NCBI GenBank assembly: GCA_030688615.1
Contig: JAUYIZ010000424.1
Location: 1-32,535 of the forward strand
DNA from: Desulfobacterales bacterium
Lineage (GTDB): Bacteria > Desulfobacterota > Desulfobacteria > Desulfobacterales > JAUYIZ01
Length of the DNA: 32,535 bases
Direction: 5' to 3'
Shown: positions 3,487 to 27,005 of the stretch, one piece after another
How the letters are laid out: every line of letters starts with the position of its first letter
How positions within the stretch are numbered: the stretch's first letter is position 1
Notes under the pieces: generated by a model
What the model was told of the DNA's origin: nothing
Database searches by the model: none
The model's input: the letters and a program-made list of their open reading frames with translations, nothing else
Position numbers and translations under genes: made by a program

Positions 3487-3530
3487 TATCAGCCTTGATT
3501 TTATAAAGCAATACATCTAAAACCAATTGT

Positions 3531-3679
3531 AACCGTTCACGGTTTACAGTTATCGGTTCACGGTTAAAAAAACAGTGCGAAAAAATTAATTCAAAGTTGA
3601 AATCAATATCCAGAAGGCTCCAATCGATGCATAGTTCATTTAAAAAACTGTGAACTGTGAACCGATAACCGTGAACGGA
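3531..3679. repeat. Long interrupted inverted repeat between lon and the prepilin peptidase
   Basis: CCGTTCACGGTT (3533-3544) is perfectly complementary to AACCGTGAACGG (3667-3678). TATCGGTTCAC (3551-3561) is perfectly complementary to GTGAACCGATA (3657-3667). The left arm carries an extra TACAGT between the two blocks. The arms are built from repeated GGTT-CAC-AGTT units, and the 95-bp centre has no ORF I can support. Related wording recurs in the inverted repeat at 26942-27005. It occupies most of the 326-bp gap between the divergent lon and prepilin peptidase genes. Confidence 0.75.
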
Positions 3680-3714
3680 TACAACCATTTTACTTTTTTA
3701 CGGGCAGGTATCTT

Positions 3715-12562: not shown

Positions 12563-13798
12563 ATGCAGGCGGAAATTATTACCATCGGAACAGAGCTTTT
12601 ACTGGGGCAGATTGTGGATACCAACGCTGCCTTTCTGGCCCGGAAACTGGCTGAAATCGGGTTTAACGTCTTCCGCAAAACTACCGTCGGTGATAACACG
12701 GCACGCATTGCCGAATCCATGCAAAGTGCCCTGAGCTGCTGTGACGTCGTCATTGCTTCCGGCGGTCTGGGACCGACGGTGGATGATAAAACCCGCGAAG
12801 CCGCAGCCGCTGCAACCGGACGCGACCTGATATTGGAACCGGAGCTTTTGCTTGACATCCAGCGGTTTTTCAACCAGCGGGGCAGCCCGTTAAGCGAAAA
12901 TAATAAAAGGCAGGCCTACCTGCCCCGGGGCGCCACCGCAATCCGCAACCCGGTGGGCACCGCCCCCGCTTTCATCGTCCCTGTCCGGAAAAAATTTCTC
13001 ATCTGTCTTCCAGGGGTTCCCGCCGAGCTGAATTATCTGACTGAAAATGCCGTGATGCGTTTTCTGCAGGAGGAATTTAGGATTCAGACGATTATTAAGA
13101 CGCGGACACTCAAGACCGCCGGAATGGGGGAGAGCGCTATTGACCGGCAGATCGGGGACCTGGAGGAATCGACCAATCCCACGGTGGGCCTTGCCGCACA
13201 CCTGGGGTCGGTGGACATCCGGATTTCAGCCAAAGCCAACAGCCCGGACGATGCACGGGCAATGCTGGATCAAATGGAAACCAGGATCCGCCAGAGGCTC
13301 GGGGAAATGATTTACGGCACCGATGATGACACCATTGAGGGTGTGGTGGTCCAGGAGATACGGCAACGGCGGTTGAAACTGGCCTTGTTGGAGACCAACA
13401 CGGGCGGTGAACTTTCGGCCCGGCTGACCTCGGCGCCGGGCGGTTACGAAGTTGTGGATCAGGCCACGGTGATGTCGCTCAAGCGCGCAGGATTCTTCTT
13501 TGCCGGCAAGCATGCCCGCGATAATTGGAACGTTTCAGAAAAAACCGCCATATCCCTTTCAAGGGCCCTGCAGCAGAAGCATGACGTGCCCATAGGCATT
13601 GCGGTTGTCGGGGATGAAGATGCCGGCATGGGGCCTTACAGCGACCCGACCGGCAATACTTATGCCGGACTGGCCCTTGGAAGCGATGTCATCTGCAAGC
13701 ACATTCCCATGGGCGGCCTGTCAAGAACCTCGCGCAGCCGGATCATCAACGCGACACTGGATAAACTGAGAAGATCTTTGAAAGGCCTGGATCTTTAG
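12563..13798 (+). CDS. cinA: CinA-family protein with intact MoCF domain and degenerate deamidase domain
   Basis: This 411-residue CinA has the MoCF/MoaB-like N-terminal domain: ITIGTELLLGQIVDTN at the start and ASGGLGPTVDD near residue 65-75. In characterised CinAs this domain cleaves ADP-ribose or NAD-related pyrophosphates. A linker domain spans about 170-255. The C-terminal domain should be an NMN deamidase (PncC), but its nucleophile motif ESCTGG reads ETNTGG (277-282), and the usual AVTGIAGPGG loop reads AVVGDEDAG. It therefore probably lacks deamidase activity. It lies 32 bp after the Grx-TrxR gene and ends inside a strong hairpin. Confidence 0.9.
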   Translation: MQAEIITIGTELLLGQIVDTNAAFLARKLAEIGFNVFRKTTVGDNTARIAESMQSALSCCDVVIASGGLGPTVDDKTREAAAAATGRDLILEPELLLDIQRFFNQRGSPLSENNKRQAYLPRGATAIRNPVGTAPAFIVPVRKKFLICLPGVPAELNYLTENAVMRFLQEEFRIQTIIKTRTLKTAGMGESAIDRQIGDLEESTNPTVGLAAHLGSVDIRISAKANSPDDARAMLDQMETRIRQRLGEMIYGTDDDTIEGVVVQEIRQRRLKLALLETNTGGELSARLTSAPGGYEVVDQATVMSLKRAGFFFAGKHARDNWNVSEKTAISLSRALQQKHDVPIGIAVVGDEDAGMGPYSDPTGNTYAGLALGSDVICKHIPMGGLSRTSRSRIINATLDKLRRSLKGLDL

Positions 13799-13837: not shown

Positions 13838-13846
13838 TTAGACCGC

Positions 13847-13988
13847 GAGACCTTTGAAAAATGTCAAATTTTGTTCGAGTTCAAGGAAGGCGAAAATTTT
13901 AACCGGAGGAATACATAGAGTATTTCGAGGATTAAAATTTGAGCCTGACACAGAAATCGGGCAAAATAGGGGGTTTTGCAAAGGTCTC
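13847..13988 (+). mobile_element. 142-bp MITE-like element, copy 1
   Basis: The element starts GAGACCTTTGAAAAA and ends TTTTGCAAAGGTCTC, giving near-perfect terminal inverted repeats. Just outside each end is ACCGC (13842-13846 and 13989-13993), a 5-bp target duplication. The inside resembles copy 2 at 20881-21022 along its full length when that copy is reversed. No ORF is supported, so it must depend on a transposase elsewhere. It lies between the cinA hairpin and the promoter of the ABC importer. Confidence 0.88.
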
Positions 13989-14046
13989 ACCGCAGTTGCC
14001 CCGGGCCCTGTGCGTCCGGGGAAAGCATCCCCGGGGACGTTTTCCC

Positions 14047-14111: not shown

Positions 14112-15212
14112 ATGATCAACGTCAAGAACCTGAAAAAACATTATTTTTCTTACGACAAAACCCCGGTTCAAGCACTCAAAGGCATCAGCTTTCAAATCGA
14201 AGCCGGAGAGTTTTATACGCTTTTGGGGCCCTCGGGATGTGGCAAGACCACCACCTTGCGGTGTATCGCCGGTTTCGAAGATCCCCAGGAAGGAGAAATC
14301 TGGATCGACGACAAACTTGTATTTTCAAGCGAAAAACAGGTGGATCTGCCGGCCATGAAAAGAAATTTCGGCATCGTTTTCCAGTCGTACGCCATATGGC
14401 CCCACATGAGTGTATTTAAAAACGTTGCCTTCCCTTTAGCCCATGGCCAGCACAAGGTGCCCAAGGCTGAAATTAAGGACCGGGTCATGCGGGCGCTCAA
14501 GTTGACCCAGCTGGAGGGATTGGCGGACCGTCCGGCTCCTTTTCTCAGCGGGGGCCAGCAGCAGCGGGTGGCCCTGGCCCGGGCGCTGGTAAACGAGCCG
14601 CGGGTGCTGCTGCTGGATGAGCCCCTGAGCAACCTGGACGCCGGCTTGAGAGAGGATATGCGCCTTGAAATCCGGGACTTGTCAAAACGGCTCAATATCA
14701 CGACACTCTACGTGACCCACGATCAGCTGGAAGCACTGACCATGTCGGACCGGGTTGCGGTGATGAACGCGGGACTCATCGTTCAGGAAGGTTCTTCCCT
14801 GAACATTTATAAGGAACCTGCCAGTCGTTTCGTGGCCAGGTTTATCGGTGTGGCCAACTTCCTTGAAGGCGTGGTTTCCGCCGAAAGCACCAACGGATGG
14901 GCAGAAGTGAACACCCCTGCCGGGATCATCCGCTGCAGGCCGCCCGAGGGTGCTGTGGCTGGAAACAGGGTGCTGATAATCATCCGTCCGGAGGATTTGA
15001 TTTTTTGTCAGGATGAAGCGCTGCCGGACCATAATGTCATCCAGGCCCACCTGGATAAGGTCGTTTTTACCGGCGAGGCGCTGGACTGCAAAGTGTCTGT
15101 CGCAGACCAGAAATTCCGGGTTAAGGTCCATTCATCCATCGCGGTGGAAGCCGGAAGCAATGTCCGGTTTTATCTGCCCCCGGATCAATGCCGGGTGTTG
15201 CCCGCTTCCTGA
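14112..15212 (+). CDS. ABC importer ATPase, FbpC/PotA type
   Basis: This 366-residue ATP-binding subunit belongs to the CUT1/FbpC/PotA group of importers. It has Walker A GPSGCGKTT near residue 38, the Q-loop VFQSYAIWPH, signature LSGGQQQR, Walker B LLLDEPLSNLD and the switch His in VTHDQ. A C-terminal TOBE-like regulatory domain of about 120 residues follows. It works at the inner face of the cytoplasmic membrane with the permease gene that follows after 82 bp. Family likeness fits ferric iron, polyamine or aminoethylphosphonate uptake; the substrate is not decided. No periplasmic binding protein is present in the window. Confidence 0.93.
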   Translation: MINVKNLKKHYFSYDKTPVQALKGISFQIEAGEFYTLLGPSGCGKTTTLRCIAGFEDPQEGEIWIDDKLVFSSEKQVDLPAMKRNFGIVFQSYAIWPHMSVFKNVAFPLAHGQHKVPKAEIKDRVMRALKLTQLEGLADRPAPFLSGGQQQRVALARALVNEPRVLLLDEPLSNLDAGLREDMRLEIRDLSKRLNITTLYVTHDQLEALTMSDRVAVMNAGLIVQEGSSLNIYKEPASRFVARFIGVANFLEGVVSAESTNGWAEVNTPAGIIRCRPPEGAVAGNRVLIIIRPEDLIFCQDEALPDHNVIQAHLDKVVFTGEALDCKVSVADQKFRVKVHSSIAVEAGSNVRFYLPPDQCRVLPAS

Positions 15213-15294: not shown

Positions 15295-17022
15295 ATGAAA
15301 ATCATGGGTTTCATGCGGACGCTGACGCTCAACCGCAAGCGTCTTATTTTCTGGATACTCGTCATTGTTGTGGGCACCGCAGTGATGGCGCCCTTGAGCC
15401 TGTTGGTTTTAAACAGCTTCCGGAAGGTTGACGTGGGAGACCTGAATTTCGGTTTTAACAAGTTTACGCTCCGCAACTATGTTGAAGCCTACTCCCATCC
15501 CATGACCTATAAAATGCTTTTGAATTCCTTTGTTTTTGCCATAAGCTCCATGCTGGTGGCAACATTCTTCGGCGGTTTTCTGGCGTTTTTGTCTGAGCGC
15601 ACCAATTTGCGCTACCGGACCGTCATCCCCTTTCTGGTCATGGTTCCCCTGATCATGCCCGGCGTGGTCAAGGGAATTGCCTGGATCTTTCTTCTGTCGC
15701 CCAACATCGGTTTGCTGAACGTCGCCTGGAAAGCCCTGGGGTTTAAAAAGCACCTGTTCGACGTCTATTCCCTTCCCGCCATGATCTGGGTCGAAGGGAT
15801 CAGCATGAGCACCCTGGCTTTTCTGATGATCGGGGCCACCCTGCGACAGATGGACCCGGTCCTGGAGGAGGCTGCTTTCGGCAGCGGCGCATCGGCCGGG
15901 CAGGTGCTGGTGCGTGTCACCCTTCCCCTGATGATCCCCGGGCTGGCCGGTGTTGCCATTTTACTGTTCATCCGGGGCATTGAGACCTTTGAGGTGCCGA
16001 TGCTGCTGGGCCTGAACAGCGGTATTTTCGTATTCAGCACCAACATCTACTACTCCCTGCGCAGCGCTTTCCCGCCGGACTATGGATTGGGGTTTGCCTA
16101 TAGCATGATGCTGATCACATTAACCATGTTTGCGCTTGTCATTTACCAGAAGATGTTCAAGAGTTCAGGGAAATACACGGTTGTCACCGGCAAGGGATAT
16201 CGTCCCCGGGTCATCCACCTGGGGGCCTGGCGCTATCCGGCGTGGGGGTTCGTGGCCTTTTATATCATTTTTGCCATCATACTGCCCTTGTTGATTCTGG
16301 TTTGGGCGTCTTTGCTGCCCTACTATAAGCCGCCCTCGGCAGCCTCCATGGCGCTGGTGACGATGGAAAACTACAAGCAGCTGCTATCGTCTGAAAACCT
16401 GCTGCCCGTGCTGAAGAACACCATTATCCTGGGCGGGTTGAGCGGCATAACAATCATGTTTCTGGCGGTGTTGTCATCCTGGTTTGTACACCGGACCAAC
16501 ATCGCCGGGCGTAAAATATTAGACTTTATCATCTTTCTTCCCTATGCCATCGGCGGGATGGCCATCGGGGTGTCGTTTATGGTGGTTTTCCTGTCATTTC
16601 CCAACCCCATCTACAACACCATCTGGATTATCGTACTGGCCTATATTGTCACCTACCTGCCCATCGGCACCCGCTTTACGAATGCTTCCATCGTGCAGGT
16701 GCACAAGGAACTGGAGGAAGCGGCTTCGGCCAGCGGAGCCAATTTCTGGCAGGCGTTGTTCTATATCTGGATACCCCTGCTGCTTCCCGGTCTGGTCAAC
16801 GGCATACTTTTTGTGTTTATCCTGAGTCTTAAGGTGATGTCCGTTGCTGCCTTGCTGCAAAGCTCGGACAACATGGTGCTGTCGGTGTGGCTCTGGCACA
16901 TGTGGGATGCCGGGGATCCCGGCGTTGCCTCGGCCCTGGCGGTGCTCATGATTGTCGTGCTCGGTACCCTGACCATCGTTGCGCGCCGTTTATCTCACTC
17001 ATCGGAGGCGTTCAAAGAGTGA
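15295..17022 (+). CDS. ABC importer fused permease, FbpB type
   Basis: This 575-residue permease consists of two BPD_transp_1 domains in one chain, about 12 membrane helices in total. Each half has the EAA loop that contacts the ATPase: EEAAFGSGAS...PLMIPG near residue 195-215, and EEAASASGAN...PLLLPG near 475-500. The double-length form is typical of iron(III) FbpB-like transporters and some phosphonate importers. GGGGAG precedes the ATG. It is co-directional with the ATPase and probably shares its promoter. The second half has a large cytoplasmic/periplasmic linker around residues 290-340. Confidence 0.92.
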   Translation: MKIMGFMRTLTLNRKRLIFWILVIVVGTAVMAPLSLLVLNSFRKVDVGDLNFGFNKFTLRNYVEAYSHPMTYKMLLNSFVFAISSMLVATFFGGFLAFLSERTNLRYRTVIPFLVMVPLIMPGVVKGIAWIFLLSPNIGLLNVAWKALGFKKHLFDVYSLPAMIWVEGISMSTLAFLMIGATLRQMDPVLEEAAFGSGASAGQVLVRVTLPLMIPGLAGVAILLFIRGIETFEVPMLLGLNSGIFVFSTNIYYSLRSAFPPDYGLGFAYSMMLITLTMFALVIYQKMFKSSGKYTVVTGKGYRPRVIHLGAWRYPAWGFVAFYIIFAIILPLLILVWASLLPYYKPPSAASMALVTMENYKQLLSSENLLPVLKNTIILGGLSGITIMFLAVLSSWFVHRTNIAGRKILDFIIFLPYAIGGMAIGVSFMVVFLSFPNPIYNTIWIIVLAYIVTYLPIGTRFTNASIVQVHKELEEAASASGANFWQALFYIWIPLLLPGLVNGILFVFILSLKVMSVAALLQSSDNMVLSVWLWHMWDAGDPGVASALAVLMIVVLGTLTIVARRLSHSSEAFKE

Positions 17023-17100: not shown

Positions 17101-17370
17101 GAAATTACAAATTCCAAGCATCAAATTACAAACAAATCTCAAATTCCAAGAATCAATGACCCAAGCCTTCCAGGACGAGACATCGTTTGGATTTTCAAAT
17201 TTGGGTCATTGGGTGTTTATATGAGAATACAGGAGTCAGAATACAGAAGACAGAATAAAAACAATGTCATGGTTATTCTGACGACTGGCTCCTGTATTCT
17301 CATGTTTCGTTGTGCCCGACCCGGGCATGGGGGGTTGTTTGGTATTTGTAATTTGATATTTGTGATTTCA
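17101..17370. repeat. Nested set of three inverted repeats in a 422-bp gap
   Basis: The 422-bp convergent gap holds no supported gene. Outer arms: ATCAAATTACAAA (17120-17132) is perfectly complementary to 17345-17357, and GAAATTACAAAT (17101-17112) matches 17358-17369 with one mismatch. Inside, AATGACCCA (17155-17163) pairs with TGGGTCATT (17202-17210). Also inside, ATGAGAATACAGGAG (17221-17235) pairs perfectly with CTCCTGTATTCTCAT (17289-17303). The outer pair encloses the two inner ones. This looks like stacked extragenic palindromes or insertions within one another, and they may double as bidirectional terminators between the permease and PBP genes. Confidence 0.72.
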
Positions 17371-19976: not shown

Positions 19977-20867
19977 CTACACCATCAGGATGGTGCCCGC
20001 AACAACGGCAAAGATTCCAATGACAACGGCCCGGTTGAATACCTCCAGTTGACGGTTAAACAGAAATGAGAGCAGCAGCAGAAAGACCGGGGAAGTGGAA
20101 AAAATAGGGGAAACGACGCTGGCCGGCCCCGAACTGAGTGCGATAAAGCGAAAAAGATGGGCCAGGGCGCTGAACAGGCCGATCAGGCTGAACAGGCCCA
20201 GACTTCCGGCTTTTATGCCCTCAAAAGTCACCCGGCTGTTTCGGCTTAAGATAAAGACCCCTAAAACCAAAAATGCCGCTAAATTGGAGACCAGCGCGCC
20301 GGCGATGGGGGCATTGACGCCTGCAAGGCCGAATTTTACCAGGATGGGGCTTGCCCCCCAGGTTACACCCGTGCCCATTCCATAAAAAAACGCCCGGCGG
20401 GGCATGCCGCTCAACAGGCCCTTGCCGCCGCGGAAGGTTTCGGGACTCAAAGCGCCGAGAACCACACCCAGAACGATCAACAGAATGCCCATGGCAAGCT
20501 TCCAGGTCAAGGCCTCCCCCAGCATGAAAACGCCCATGGAAACGGCCACAAGGGGGCTGGTCCGCGACATGATTCCTGCAATGTTGGCTCCCACAAGCTG
20601 CACGCAGCGCAGGTAGAACCAGCGGCCCAGAATATAATGAATAATTCCGGCTGCCGAAAACCACAAGTAGCTCTGCCATGAAAAGGAGGCAAAATTGCTT
20701 AAACGTCCGGTGCCGATTAAAATCAGGACAAAAAAAACCATTCCGGCGGCAATGGTTATTAAAACACTGAAGCTCGCATCCATCATTTTAATGACGGCCC
20801 TGCGCGCTACAATGCCGTTGAAGGAGAAGCTGATTGCGCCTAAAAGGGCTAATAGACCCGCACTCAC
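19977..20867 (-). CDS. EamA/DMT-superfamily transporter
   Basis: This 296-residue protein has ten predicted membrane helices arranged as two EamA repeats, about residues 1-135 and 150-290. Family members export or import small metabolites. The position next to cobO might hint at a corrinoid-pathway metabolite, but that is speculative. The start is GTG at 20867, preceded by GAGGGG seven bases away. This ribosome site overlaps the 5-bp target duplication of MITE copy 2, whose end lies 13 bp from the start codon. Any native promoter beyond the element is therefore displaced by about 147 bp. Confidence 0.88.
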   Translation of the reverse strand: MSAGLLALLGAISFSFNGIVARRAVIKMMDASFSVLITIAAGMVFFVLILIGTGRLSNFASFSWQSYLWFSAAGIIHYILGRWFYLRCVQLVGANIAGIMSRTSPLVAVSMGVFMLGEALTWKLAMGILLIVLGVVLGALSPETFRGGKGLLSGMPRRAFFYGMGTGVTWGASPILVKFGLAGVNAPIAGALVSNLAAFLVLGVFILSRNSRVTFEGIKAGSLGLFSLIGLFSALAHLFRFIALSSGPASVVSPIFSTSPVFLLLLSFLFNRQLEVFNRAVVIGIFAVVAGTILMV

Positions 20868-20880
20868 GAATAAACCCCTC

Positions 20881-21022
20881 GAGACCTTTGCAAAACACCC
20901 CCTTTCGCCCGATTTCTGCGTCCGGCTAAAAATTTAATCCTCAAAATACTCAATGTATTCCTGTGGTTAAATTTTTTGCCATCCTTGAACTTGAACGAAA
21001 TTGAGCATTTTTCAAAGGTCTC
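20881..21022 (-). mobile_element. 142-bp MITE-like element, copy 2 (opposite orientation)
   Basis: The plus strand starts GAGACCTTTGCAAAA and ends TTTTTCAAAGGTCTC at 21022. The reverse complement aligns with copy 1 over all 142 bp with scattered substitutions and single-base indels. CCCTC lies on both sides (20876-20880 and 21023-21027) as a 5-bp target duplication. It has no ORF. It is inserted immediately upstream of the ribosome site of the EamA transporter gene. Confidence 0.88.
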
Positions 21023-21129
21023 CCCTCTGTAAAGATACGCGGTGATTGGAAACTTTCCTAACTGCGTTTCAACGTATGTTATAAGAAGGTGGCAAGTCAA
21101 GGGCAAACATCATCAAAGGTCCATCCGGG

Positions 21130-22392
21130 TTATTCCGCGCGCCGGGGGACGGTTCTGATCAGGGCTGCAATCAAGGTTGCAAAGAGCATATTTGCGGCGC
21201 CGAAGGCAAAGGCCCCGGCGTAACTGCGGCTCGCATCGAATACCAGCCCCCCCACGGCAGGGCCGATGGCCGCCCCGATGGTCCAGCCCACGCCGATGAT
21301 GCCCATGATCGTGCCGATGTCGTCCATGCCGAACACATCACTGACCAGCACCGTCACTTGAGAACTGAGGCCTCCCCATGAAAAGCCAAAAATTGCAGCC
21401 ACCAGATAAAAGACCCATAAGTCCTGGGTCCAGATCAGAAAGGTGAGCGCTCCGGCCTGGACCAGGGCGCTGGCGACCGCCGGTATTTTCCTGCCGATCG
21501 TGTCTGATATTCTGCCGACGACAATCCGCCCCGCAATGGATGCGGCGCCTATCAGACTGAGGATAAGCGCTGCATTCATCGGTTCGATGCCCAGATCGAC
21601 CGCATGGGGGACAATGTGGGTTAAAAGAAGATGGACACTCAAAGACAACAGCAGCCAGATCATGAAAAGGAACCAGAAGTTGGCGGTTCGGACGGCCTCC
21701 GTCAGGGAAAGACCGGTCCCGGGTTTACGTCCCTGGCCGTCCTGCCGCGCGGGCCGGGTGACGTCCGGCTTGGCGCCATCGGGTAAAAGTCCCATCTCGG
21801 CAGGATCTTTTTTCAGCAGGACAGACATGCAGGTGACGATGGACCAGGAGATGACGGCCAGTATCAGGAAGGCGGTACGCCAATCAAAAGCGGAAATGAG
21901 GTAGGCGGAAAACGGCGCCATAATAAAAGTGCCCGCAGCGTTGCCTGCGCCGGATATGCCCAAGGCAAATCCCCGCCGTTTGTCAAACCAGCGGGAAACC
22001 GTTGAGTTGACCACGGTGAATACCGGACTTGTCCCGAAGGCCAGCAGGAAGCTGTAACTAAAGTACAGATGCCATAAACTGCCTGCGCGGCTGATCATTA
22101 TCAGGCTCAGGCCGGTGAGTATTCCCATTAAAAACGTAAGGCGCCTGGGTCCGTACCTGTCCAGCGCCCAGCCCCCCAGAACCGAGGCGATGCTGGAAAT
22201 TGCCATGTGAGCAGAGAAAATCCCCGAGGTGACCGCACGGGACAGATAAAATTCGGTCTCGATGGAGTTAAAAAACACACCAAAGGAATAGCGCATGCCA
22301 TAGTTTGTCAACCCGATGGCCAAACTGGCGGCGACGATCACCCAGCCGTAGAAGATATTATCGTGCAGCCATAATAACCAGCGGGCCCACAT
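21130..22392 (-). CDS. MFS transporter, monocarboxylate/oxalate-formate-antiporter-like
   Basis: This is a 12-helix major facilitator. The start in the track (22440) adds 16 non-typical codons. The ATG at 22392 (MWARWLLWLHDNIFYGWVIV) has AAAAAGGA seven bases away and gives 420 residues. The first helix, YGWVIVAASLAIG, and the GGWALDRYGPRR loop are typical of the monocarboxylate/OFA branch. A central charged loop lies at about 185-215. It is divergent from ubiD, separated by 226 bp, which suggests carriage of an aromatic or other carboxylate acted on by the decarboxylase. Substrate not proven. Confidence 0.85.
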   Translation of the reverse strand: MWARWLLWLHDNIFYGWVIVAASLAIGLTNYGMRYSFGVFFNSIETEFYLSRAVTSGIFSAHMAISSIASVLGGWALDRYGPRRLTFLMGILTGLSLIMISRAGSLWHLYFSYSFLLAFGTSPVFTVVNSTVSRWFDKRRGFALGISGAGNAAGTFIMAPFSAYLISAFDWRTAFLILAVISWSIVTCMSVLLKKDPAEMGLLPDGAKPDVTRPARQDGQGRKPGTGLSLTEAVRTANFWFLFMIWLLLSLSVHLLLTHIVPHAVDLGIEPMNAALILSLIGAASIAGRIVVGRISDTIGRKIPAVASALVQAGALTFLIWTQDLWVFYLVAAIFGFSWGGLSSQVTVLVSDVFGMDDIGTIMGIIGVGWTIGAAIGPAVGGLVFDASRSYAGAFAFGAANMLFATLIAALIRTVPRRAE

Positions 22393-22549
22393 AATATAAT
22401 CCTTTTTATAAAAAAGTCTTTTGCCAAACACCCCCGGCAACCTATATCAGCCGGCATAAGTTTGTCAAGCCGCGCCCCGGGCTGCCCCGGGGAAATCCGG
22501 CAAGCGGGGATGCAGCGCATATCCTGCCGGATGAAACAGCGCTTTTGGC

Positions 22550-26921: not shown

Positions 26922-26941
26922 TATAGATCCTTTCAAAAAAT

Positions 26942-27005
26942 CGGTTTACAGTTGCCGGTTTACAGTTCACAGTTTTTAAACCCGGAAACCGGTAACTGTT
27001 AACCG
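26942..27005. repeat. Inverted repeat upstream of rfbA
   Basis: CGGTTTACAGTTGCCGGTTT (26942-26961) pairs with 26986-27005 at 18 of 20 positions, with a 24-base centre that carries another TTTACAGTTCACAGTT. The GGTT/ACAGTT/CAC wording is like that of the repeat at 3531-3679, which suggests one family. It lies 21 bp upstream of the rfbA ATG, within its leader or promoter. Confidence 0.7.

Follow-up and report, generated by a model that had tools for sequence, protein, structure and literature searches.

The window, that is, the whole stretch of 32,535 nucleotides of Desulfobacterales DNA analysed here, carries two copies of a short repeat, one on each strand (Table 1). The first copy is located between a CinA-like gene and an ABC transporter ATPase gene, and the second lies between MFS and EamA-type genes that both run in the same direction. 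The copies are 142 bp each and identical to one another at 122 of 142 positions, and both are bounded by perfect 10-bp inverted ends, GAGACCTTTG/CAAAGGTCTC, which also occur on most other copies. The 5-bp duplication at the second copy forms a Shine-Dalgarno-like GAGGGG directly upstream of the EamA gene start. An earlier note on this DNA had described the pair as elements of equal length with matching terminal inverted repeats, homologous interiors, and private 5-bp repeats (ACCGC and CCCTC), and the description holds exactly, including the positions of both copies and their flanks. It placed the autonomous element outside the window, and no transposase was found among the window neighbour genes scanned. 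A lone GAGACCTTTG at window positions 15982–15991, in a transporter gene and without a partner end, was judged a chance match. Other repeats of the window include a composite palindrome at 17109–17368, in which AAATTCCAAGCATCAAATTACAAA-type arms surround an inner hairpin, ATGAGAATACAGGAGTCAGAATACAGAA, at 17221–17303, with similar 'ACAAATATCAAATTACAAATACC' repeats on other contigs (L043, L222), and inverted pairs of CGGTTTACAGTT/CGGTTCACGGTT-type repeats at 3527–3684 and 26940–26980.

Table 1. Positions of the two repeat copies, their parts, and the neighbouring genes in the window.
Feature	Positions	Strand	Length
CinA-like gene (MoCF_biosynth, CinA_KH, CinA)	12563–13798	+	
Target-site duplication ACCGC, left of copy 1	13842–13846	.	
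MITE copy 1, end type A, subfamily A1	13847–13988	+	142 bp
Copy 1 left terminal inverted repeat GAGACCTTTG, perfect	13847–13856	+	
Copy 1 conserved body (core), common to elements with other ends	13875–13962	+	
Copy 1 body, apical stem-loop (7 bp stem, 5-nt loop)	13908–13926	+	
Copy 1 right terminal inverted repeat GAGACCTTTG, perfect	13979–13988	-	
Target-site duplication ACCGC, right of copy 1	13989–13993	.	
ABC transporter ATPase gene with TOBE_2	14112–15212	+	
EamA-like transporter gene, GTG start 13 bp from copy 2	19977–20867	-	
Target-site duplication CCCTC (- strand: GAGGG), at the EamA gene side of copy 2	20876–20880	.	
MITE copy 2, end type A, second subfamily	20881–21022	-	142 bp
Copy 2 conserved body (core)	20907–20994	-	
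Target-site duplication CCCTC, other side of copy 2	21023–21027	.	
MFS transporter gene	21130–22440	-	

The label "two-copy" given in the earlier note applies inside the window only, and its expectation of a family spread through the genome is borne out. In the 4.78-Mb host genome (429 contigs), at least 43 copies with both ends of this kind (type A) were found, which split into two subfamilies, and an earlier whole-element search had recovered at least 40 full or near-full copies and one fragment. Some host contigs start or stop within a copy, which indicates that the repeat breaks the assembly. The sequence GAGACCTTTG occurs 156 times in the 4.78 Mb compared with 11 times for the reversed control, and a search by the ends only, which ignored the interior and allowed 128–158 bp, returned 29 elements, every one of them 142 bp long. 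Inspection of the flanks, as the earlier note had proposed, revealed common ends and an exact 5-bp duplication at 56 of 96 type-A copies of the own and related genomes, where 0.9 would be expected with flanks randomly re-paired; the absence of an exact duplication from the other copies is what would be expected if these are old. The excess of GAGACCTTTG, the uniform 142-bp length, and the excess of duplications rule out a chance repeat. The insertions avoid genes: once the flanks are joined, 36 of 109 insertion sites are spanned by an ORF of 100 aa or longer, compared with 382 of 445 positions drawn at random from the same loci. PLSDB gave no match, and a plasmid-borne element was dismissed; the body of the element was not found in viral contigs. 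Two elements of about 190–200 bp on own contigs C132 (L042 2154–2343) and C401 (L054 1994–2193) have the ends GAGACCTTTGCAT and a different interior and constitute a further non-autonomous family sharing that end type. A 142-bp element on an IMG/VR contig (L317 5405–5546) has the same GAGACCTTTGCAAAACCCC ends and a 5-bp duplication (AGGCT) around an unrelated interior. On own contig C153 (L044 2033–2052), the remnant GAGACCTTTGCAACGGTCTC consists of two ends joined over 20 bp and lies within a 5-bp duplication, AGGTC; it is perhaps a minimal deletion product.

The identification as a MITE proposed in the earlier note is upheld by these data: MITEs are short (50–500 bp) and lack a transposase gene, and the present element is 142 bp long, non-coding, present in many copies, and equipped with terminal inverted repeats and private duplications of fixed length. 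The agreement with the MITE definition is complete except for an intact type-A partner in the same genome, of which none was found. A match for type A is an IS5-family insertion sequence (IS) on an IMG/VR contig (L318), which resembles IS1106; it is 1222 bp long with ends GAGACCTTTGCAAAACCC and target-site duplication (TSD) GGCCT, its transposase matches model NF033581 (E=2e-66), and its PLSDB matches are Neisseria records only. The L318-type IS shares the ends GAGACCTTTGCAAAACC and the 5-bp duplication with the type-A MITEs but is autonomous and lacks the MITE body. The equality of ends and duplication length with this IS from another lineage suggests that the type-A elements have IS5-type ends. 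The autonomous element that the earlier note placed outside the window fits an IS of the L318 type. Searches of the host assembly (93% complete, with breaks at repeats) and of the related genomes checked turned up no intact IS bearing type-A ends. Several candidate partners were rejected. None of the 10 PF01609 matches in the own genome has GAGACC ends; the best IS5_4 matches in relatives (G001, 339 aa; G021; G003) are without GAGACCTTTG-type ends; a paired-end search for an autonomous type-A IS in G049 and four other genomes gave none among the matches listed; and no clear large element with arms split by a transposase gene was seen in 1 Mb of loci.

The central imperfect hairpin of about 88 bp is not tied to the GAGACCTTTG ends. 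With the 142-bp element as query, 28 of 58 genomes, the host among them, gave matches, in some of them to the interior only, and the central-palindrome pattern occurs at 87 places in the own genome, far above the number of GAGACC copies. A second set of elements in the host (type B) has the ends GTGCCCATCCATAAATG and 6-bp TAnnTA duplications, so that the own genome carries types A and B together (43 and 17 copies, respectively); an alignment of the two bodies shows 76 identical and 14 mismatched positions and 2 columns with gaps (score 100, shuffle maximum 24). A scan of named genomes, in which the contigs with matches were mostly from Desulfobacterales, Desulfobacteraceae, and deltaproteobacterial MAGs, added type C with ends GAGCCAGTTTC and 4-bp duplications and type D with ends GTGCCTGAACGAAAAC and 6-bp TAnnTA duplications. 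Beside the 5-bp duplications of type A, duplications of 4 bp were found at 11 of 18 type-C loci and of 6 bp at 19 of 23 type-B and 6 of 14 type-D loci, compared with shuffled expectations of about 1 (A), 1 (C), 2 (B), and 1 (D). The frame is 141–142 bp in most elements, whatever the end type. In a sample of the phylum, the body was present in 43 of 395 genomes, most of them outside the order, and most of 40 copies read from these genomes have recognisable A, B, D, or further variant ends and a length of 139–144 bp. Most non-type-A loci were gathered through the body sequence, the own-genome census of type A alone having been blind to the interior, and the frequency of the same ends without the body can therefore not be read from them. 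Small GC-rich ATCCCG..CGGGAT hairpins are nested in the arms of several elements (L105, L117, L126, and L157), which they lengthen to 158–199 bp.

Types B and D match ISs of another family in both their ends and their 6-bp TAnnTA duplication. Autonomous ISNCY-family ISs (NF033593, transpos_ISNCY_1) with a length of 1.7–1.9 kb bear GTG-type ends (GTGTCCATCCGG/GTGTCTGAACGAAAA) and 6-bp TAnnTA duplications as in types B and D and, unlike the MITEs, are autonomous and without the MITE body. For example, a 1675-bp IS (L250/L273) with TSD TAGATA encodes a 452-aa transposase (NF033593, E=9e-133), and another (L271) has TAATTA on both sides; the ends of L272 and L283 are similar to those of the ISNCY ISs, with two differing flanks in each. 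A putative type-B partner in the own genome is a damaged ISNCY copy on contig C107, the right end of which, GTGTCCATCCGGGAACATAAC, adjoins TAGTTA. No partner IS was found for type C. A 925-bp IS on own contig C165 (L062 178–1102) has ends GTGCTTATCCGTAAATAA, a TTA duplication, and a transposase gene that occupies two frames with an overlap. To the eye it is similar to type B, but it was dropped as the partner of that type because the duplication is 3 bp.

The window repeats are very probably non-autonomous DNA transposons (MITEs) and make up the type-A branch of a larger family that extends across sulfate-reducer-type bacteria, in which one hairpin body of about 88 bp travels with at least four end sets and at least three transposition systems. 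An IS5-family DDE transposase would cut and join the GAGACCTTTG ends in trans and leave the 5-bp duplication. The same imperfect hairpin in its 141–142 bp frame occurs with at least four end sets, which leave duplications of 5 bp (GAGACCTTTG), 4 bp (GAGCCAGTTTC), or 6 bp with a preference for TAnnTA (GTGCCCATCCATAAATG and GTGCCTGAACGAAAAC), and the TAnnTA sets would be served by ISNCY-family ISs. The duplication length of 4, 5, or 6 bp according to the end set implies three or more distinct transposition systems, each of which seems to move this one passenger. That the L318-type and ISNCY enzymes move the MITEs is suggested by the matching ends and duplications.

The ends of this family may have come to differ in several ways, and the constant length agrees equally with drift in place, with arm exchange, and with 36-bp end-to-end hairpins having taken up the body. 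On a tree of the bodies, a short alignment of 88 columns with many unresolved forks, the end types are scattered and require 16 changes where 6 would be the minimum; the starred branches force at least four changes for D and at least three for A, which favours exchange or repeated change. A single MITE lineage whose ends drifted in place alongside diverging transposases, without any exchange of parts, so that the body seems conserved because the ends evolve faster, is a serious possibility that falls a little short of an even chance: it agrees with the constant 141–142 bp frame, with the common pattern G[A/T]G.CC.......AAA retained by the end consensuses, and with the sequence relatedness of the two transposase families (the ISNCY_1, IS5_4, IS5_1, and IS1182 models cross-hit), but the end types do not form single groups on the body tree, the TSD length switches together with the ends, and fast drift would be odd in ends that the enzyme must recognise.

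The conflict between body tree and end types would also result if the hairpins were mosaics, with arms that recombine or switch template so that a body gains the ends of another mini-element, which we put forward tentatively. Such mosaics are in line with the small hairpins that are nested within the arms of some elements, and also with a second hairpin family (L041, L143, L189, L193, L145, and L291; the L189 element is 121 bp) with ends GATGGCTTCGTAAAAAGT and the centre GGCGTAC..GTACGCC. This second family has two intermediate blocks, TTCAAGTTCAAGG and AACGCAGAAATTGG, in common with the MITE body and resembles it in its loop pattern, which suggests mosaic construction. No target duplication was found for the second family. 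Against the mosaic explanation, no recombinant was found that could be paired with its parent at a visible breakpoint, and the local alignment of type D with the second family has a score of only 32 (shuffle maximum 29), because the left block alone enters into it.

It is improbable, finally, that the body is an insert of about 106 bp which went into the middle of 36-bp end-to-end hairpins that were there before it. Body-less elements with flanking duplications do occur with three of the end types (36 bp with a 5-bp TSD for A, 36 bp with a 6-bp TSD for B, and 37 bp for D), and 36 + 106 = 142 accounts for the constant length; however, these elements could be deletion products, as deletion of a palindrome by replication slippage would yield the same remnants, no duplication or fixed junction is seen at the edges of the body, and recognisable ends are retained by most of the 40 more distant copies.

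Whichever way the ends changed, the folded shape of the element is conserved. The whole element is predicted to form one long hairpin (RNA z -10.6, DNA z -6.8), and the consensuses of A, B, C, and D have a nearly identical inner bracket string, bulges included. Among 43 non-redundant elements, two-sided compensatory changes occur at 17 of 30 predicted pairs (90 cells compared with 24 in shuffles), counts that are inflated by related sequences and to which arm-to-arm gene conversion, which can also keep palindromic arms matched, may contribute. The three central loop positions deviate from the subfamily consensus 4–5 times more often than the rest in both A subfamilies, and in type B the raised deviation is not clear. 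The shape may be kept because it is helpful to the element or may be tolerated as a harmless intergenic hairpin. Use of the body by the host, for instance if it formed a folded RNA in leaders or at the ends of genes and transposition did no more than spread it, appears unlikely. A fold conserved through compensatory change around a variable loop, the avoidance of genes, and the position of the second copy between co-directional genes, where its duplication makes the Shine-Dalgarno-like motif, would all suit such a use, but any tolerated insertion would likewise avoid genes, and no Rfam family reaches its gathering score in the window. The best Rfam hairpin matches there (E 0.05–0.08) are far below the cut-offs and at chance level, and a known RNA of an Rfam family was rejected. 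We also consider it rather doubtful that the selected unit is the folded body and not the ends. The body would then be a phylum-wide mobile hairpin, functioning as structured RNA or extruded DNA, which survives by trading one set of ends for another and is carried by one unrelated transposase after the other (IS5-type, ISNCY-type, and further types, which duplicate 4, 5, or 6 bp).

Among known bacterial repeats, REP/REPIN sequences leave no target duplication, consist of 20–40 bp units tagged GTAG/CGTC, and are mobilised by tyrosine RAYT enzymes. REP/REPIN and ERIC-type repeats are likewise intergenic, imperfectly palindromic, and present in many copies, whereas the present MITEs have IS-type ends and target duplications of 4, 5, or 6 bp; membership in REP/REPIN was rejected on the basis of these duplications and the 142-bp units. 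The IS1202 family inserts next to dif sites. Its outer ends read 5'-TGT, and it was rejected because the MITE ends read GAG or GTG (PMC10132070). The Chunjie MITE of Geobacter uraniireducens, with tens of copies of 235 bp, is comparable by description as a multi-copy MITE in another anaerobic respiring bacterium (PMC10969869). The nearest precedent found is that of the coral CMITE families, in which the terminal repeats differ more from family to family than the interior does; cross-mobilisation by several related transposons was proposed for them, and their authors warn of the bias that comes from collecting loci by the interior (PMC2872659), a bias that affects the present loci too. The CMITEs are eukaryotic and piggyBac-like, belong to one transposon superfamily, and all keep the terminal motif CC[C/T]T (PMC2872659), whereas in the present MITEs the duplication length varies (4, 5, and 6 bp), two bacterial transposase families are matched, and the body is a conserved hairpin. 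This sole precedent found was left unexplained in corals (PMC2872659). No bacterial counterpart of a conserved body with changing ends was found in the mostly open-access literature covered, one review included.

The present repeats are ordinary in being MITEs and unusual in that one conserved folded body occurs with end sets that duplicate 4, 5, or 6 bp. The usual description of MITEs is that they are what remains of a single decayed IS, the ends being conserved and the middle unimportant. Here, the middle persists across many genera while the ends and the duplication lengths change. The family thus provides a natural data set in which to ask whether the interiors of MITEs do something and how non-autonomous elements change the enzyme that moves them, and it also allows one to ask whether sulfate-reducer-type bacteria have, in this hairpin, an RNA or DNA structure that has so far escaped recognition.
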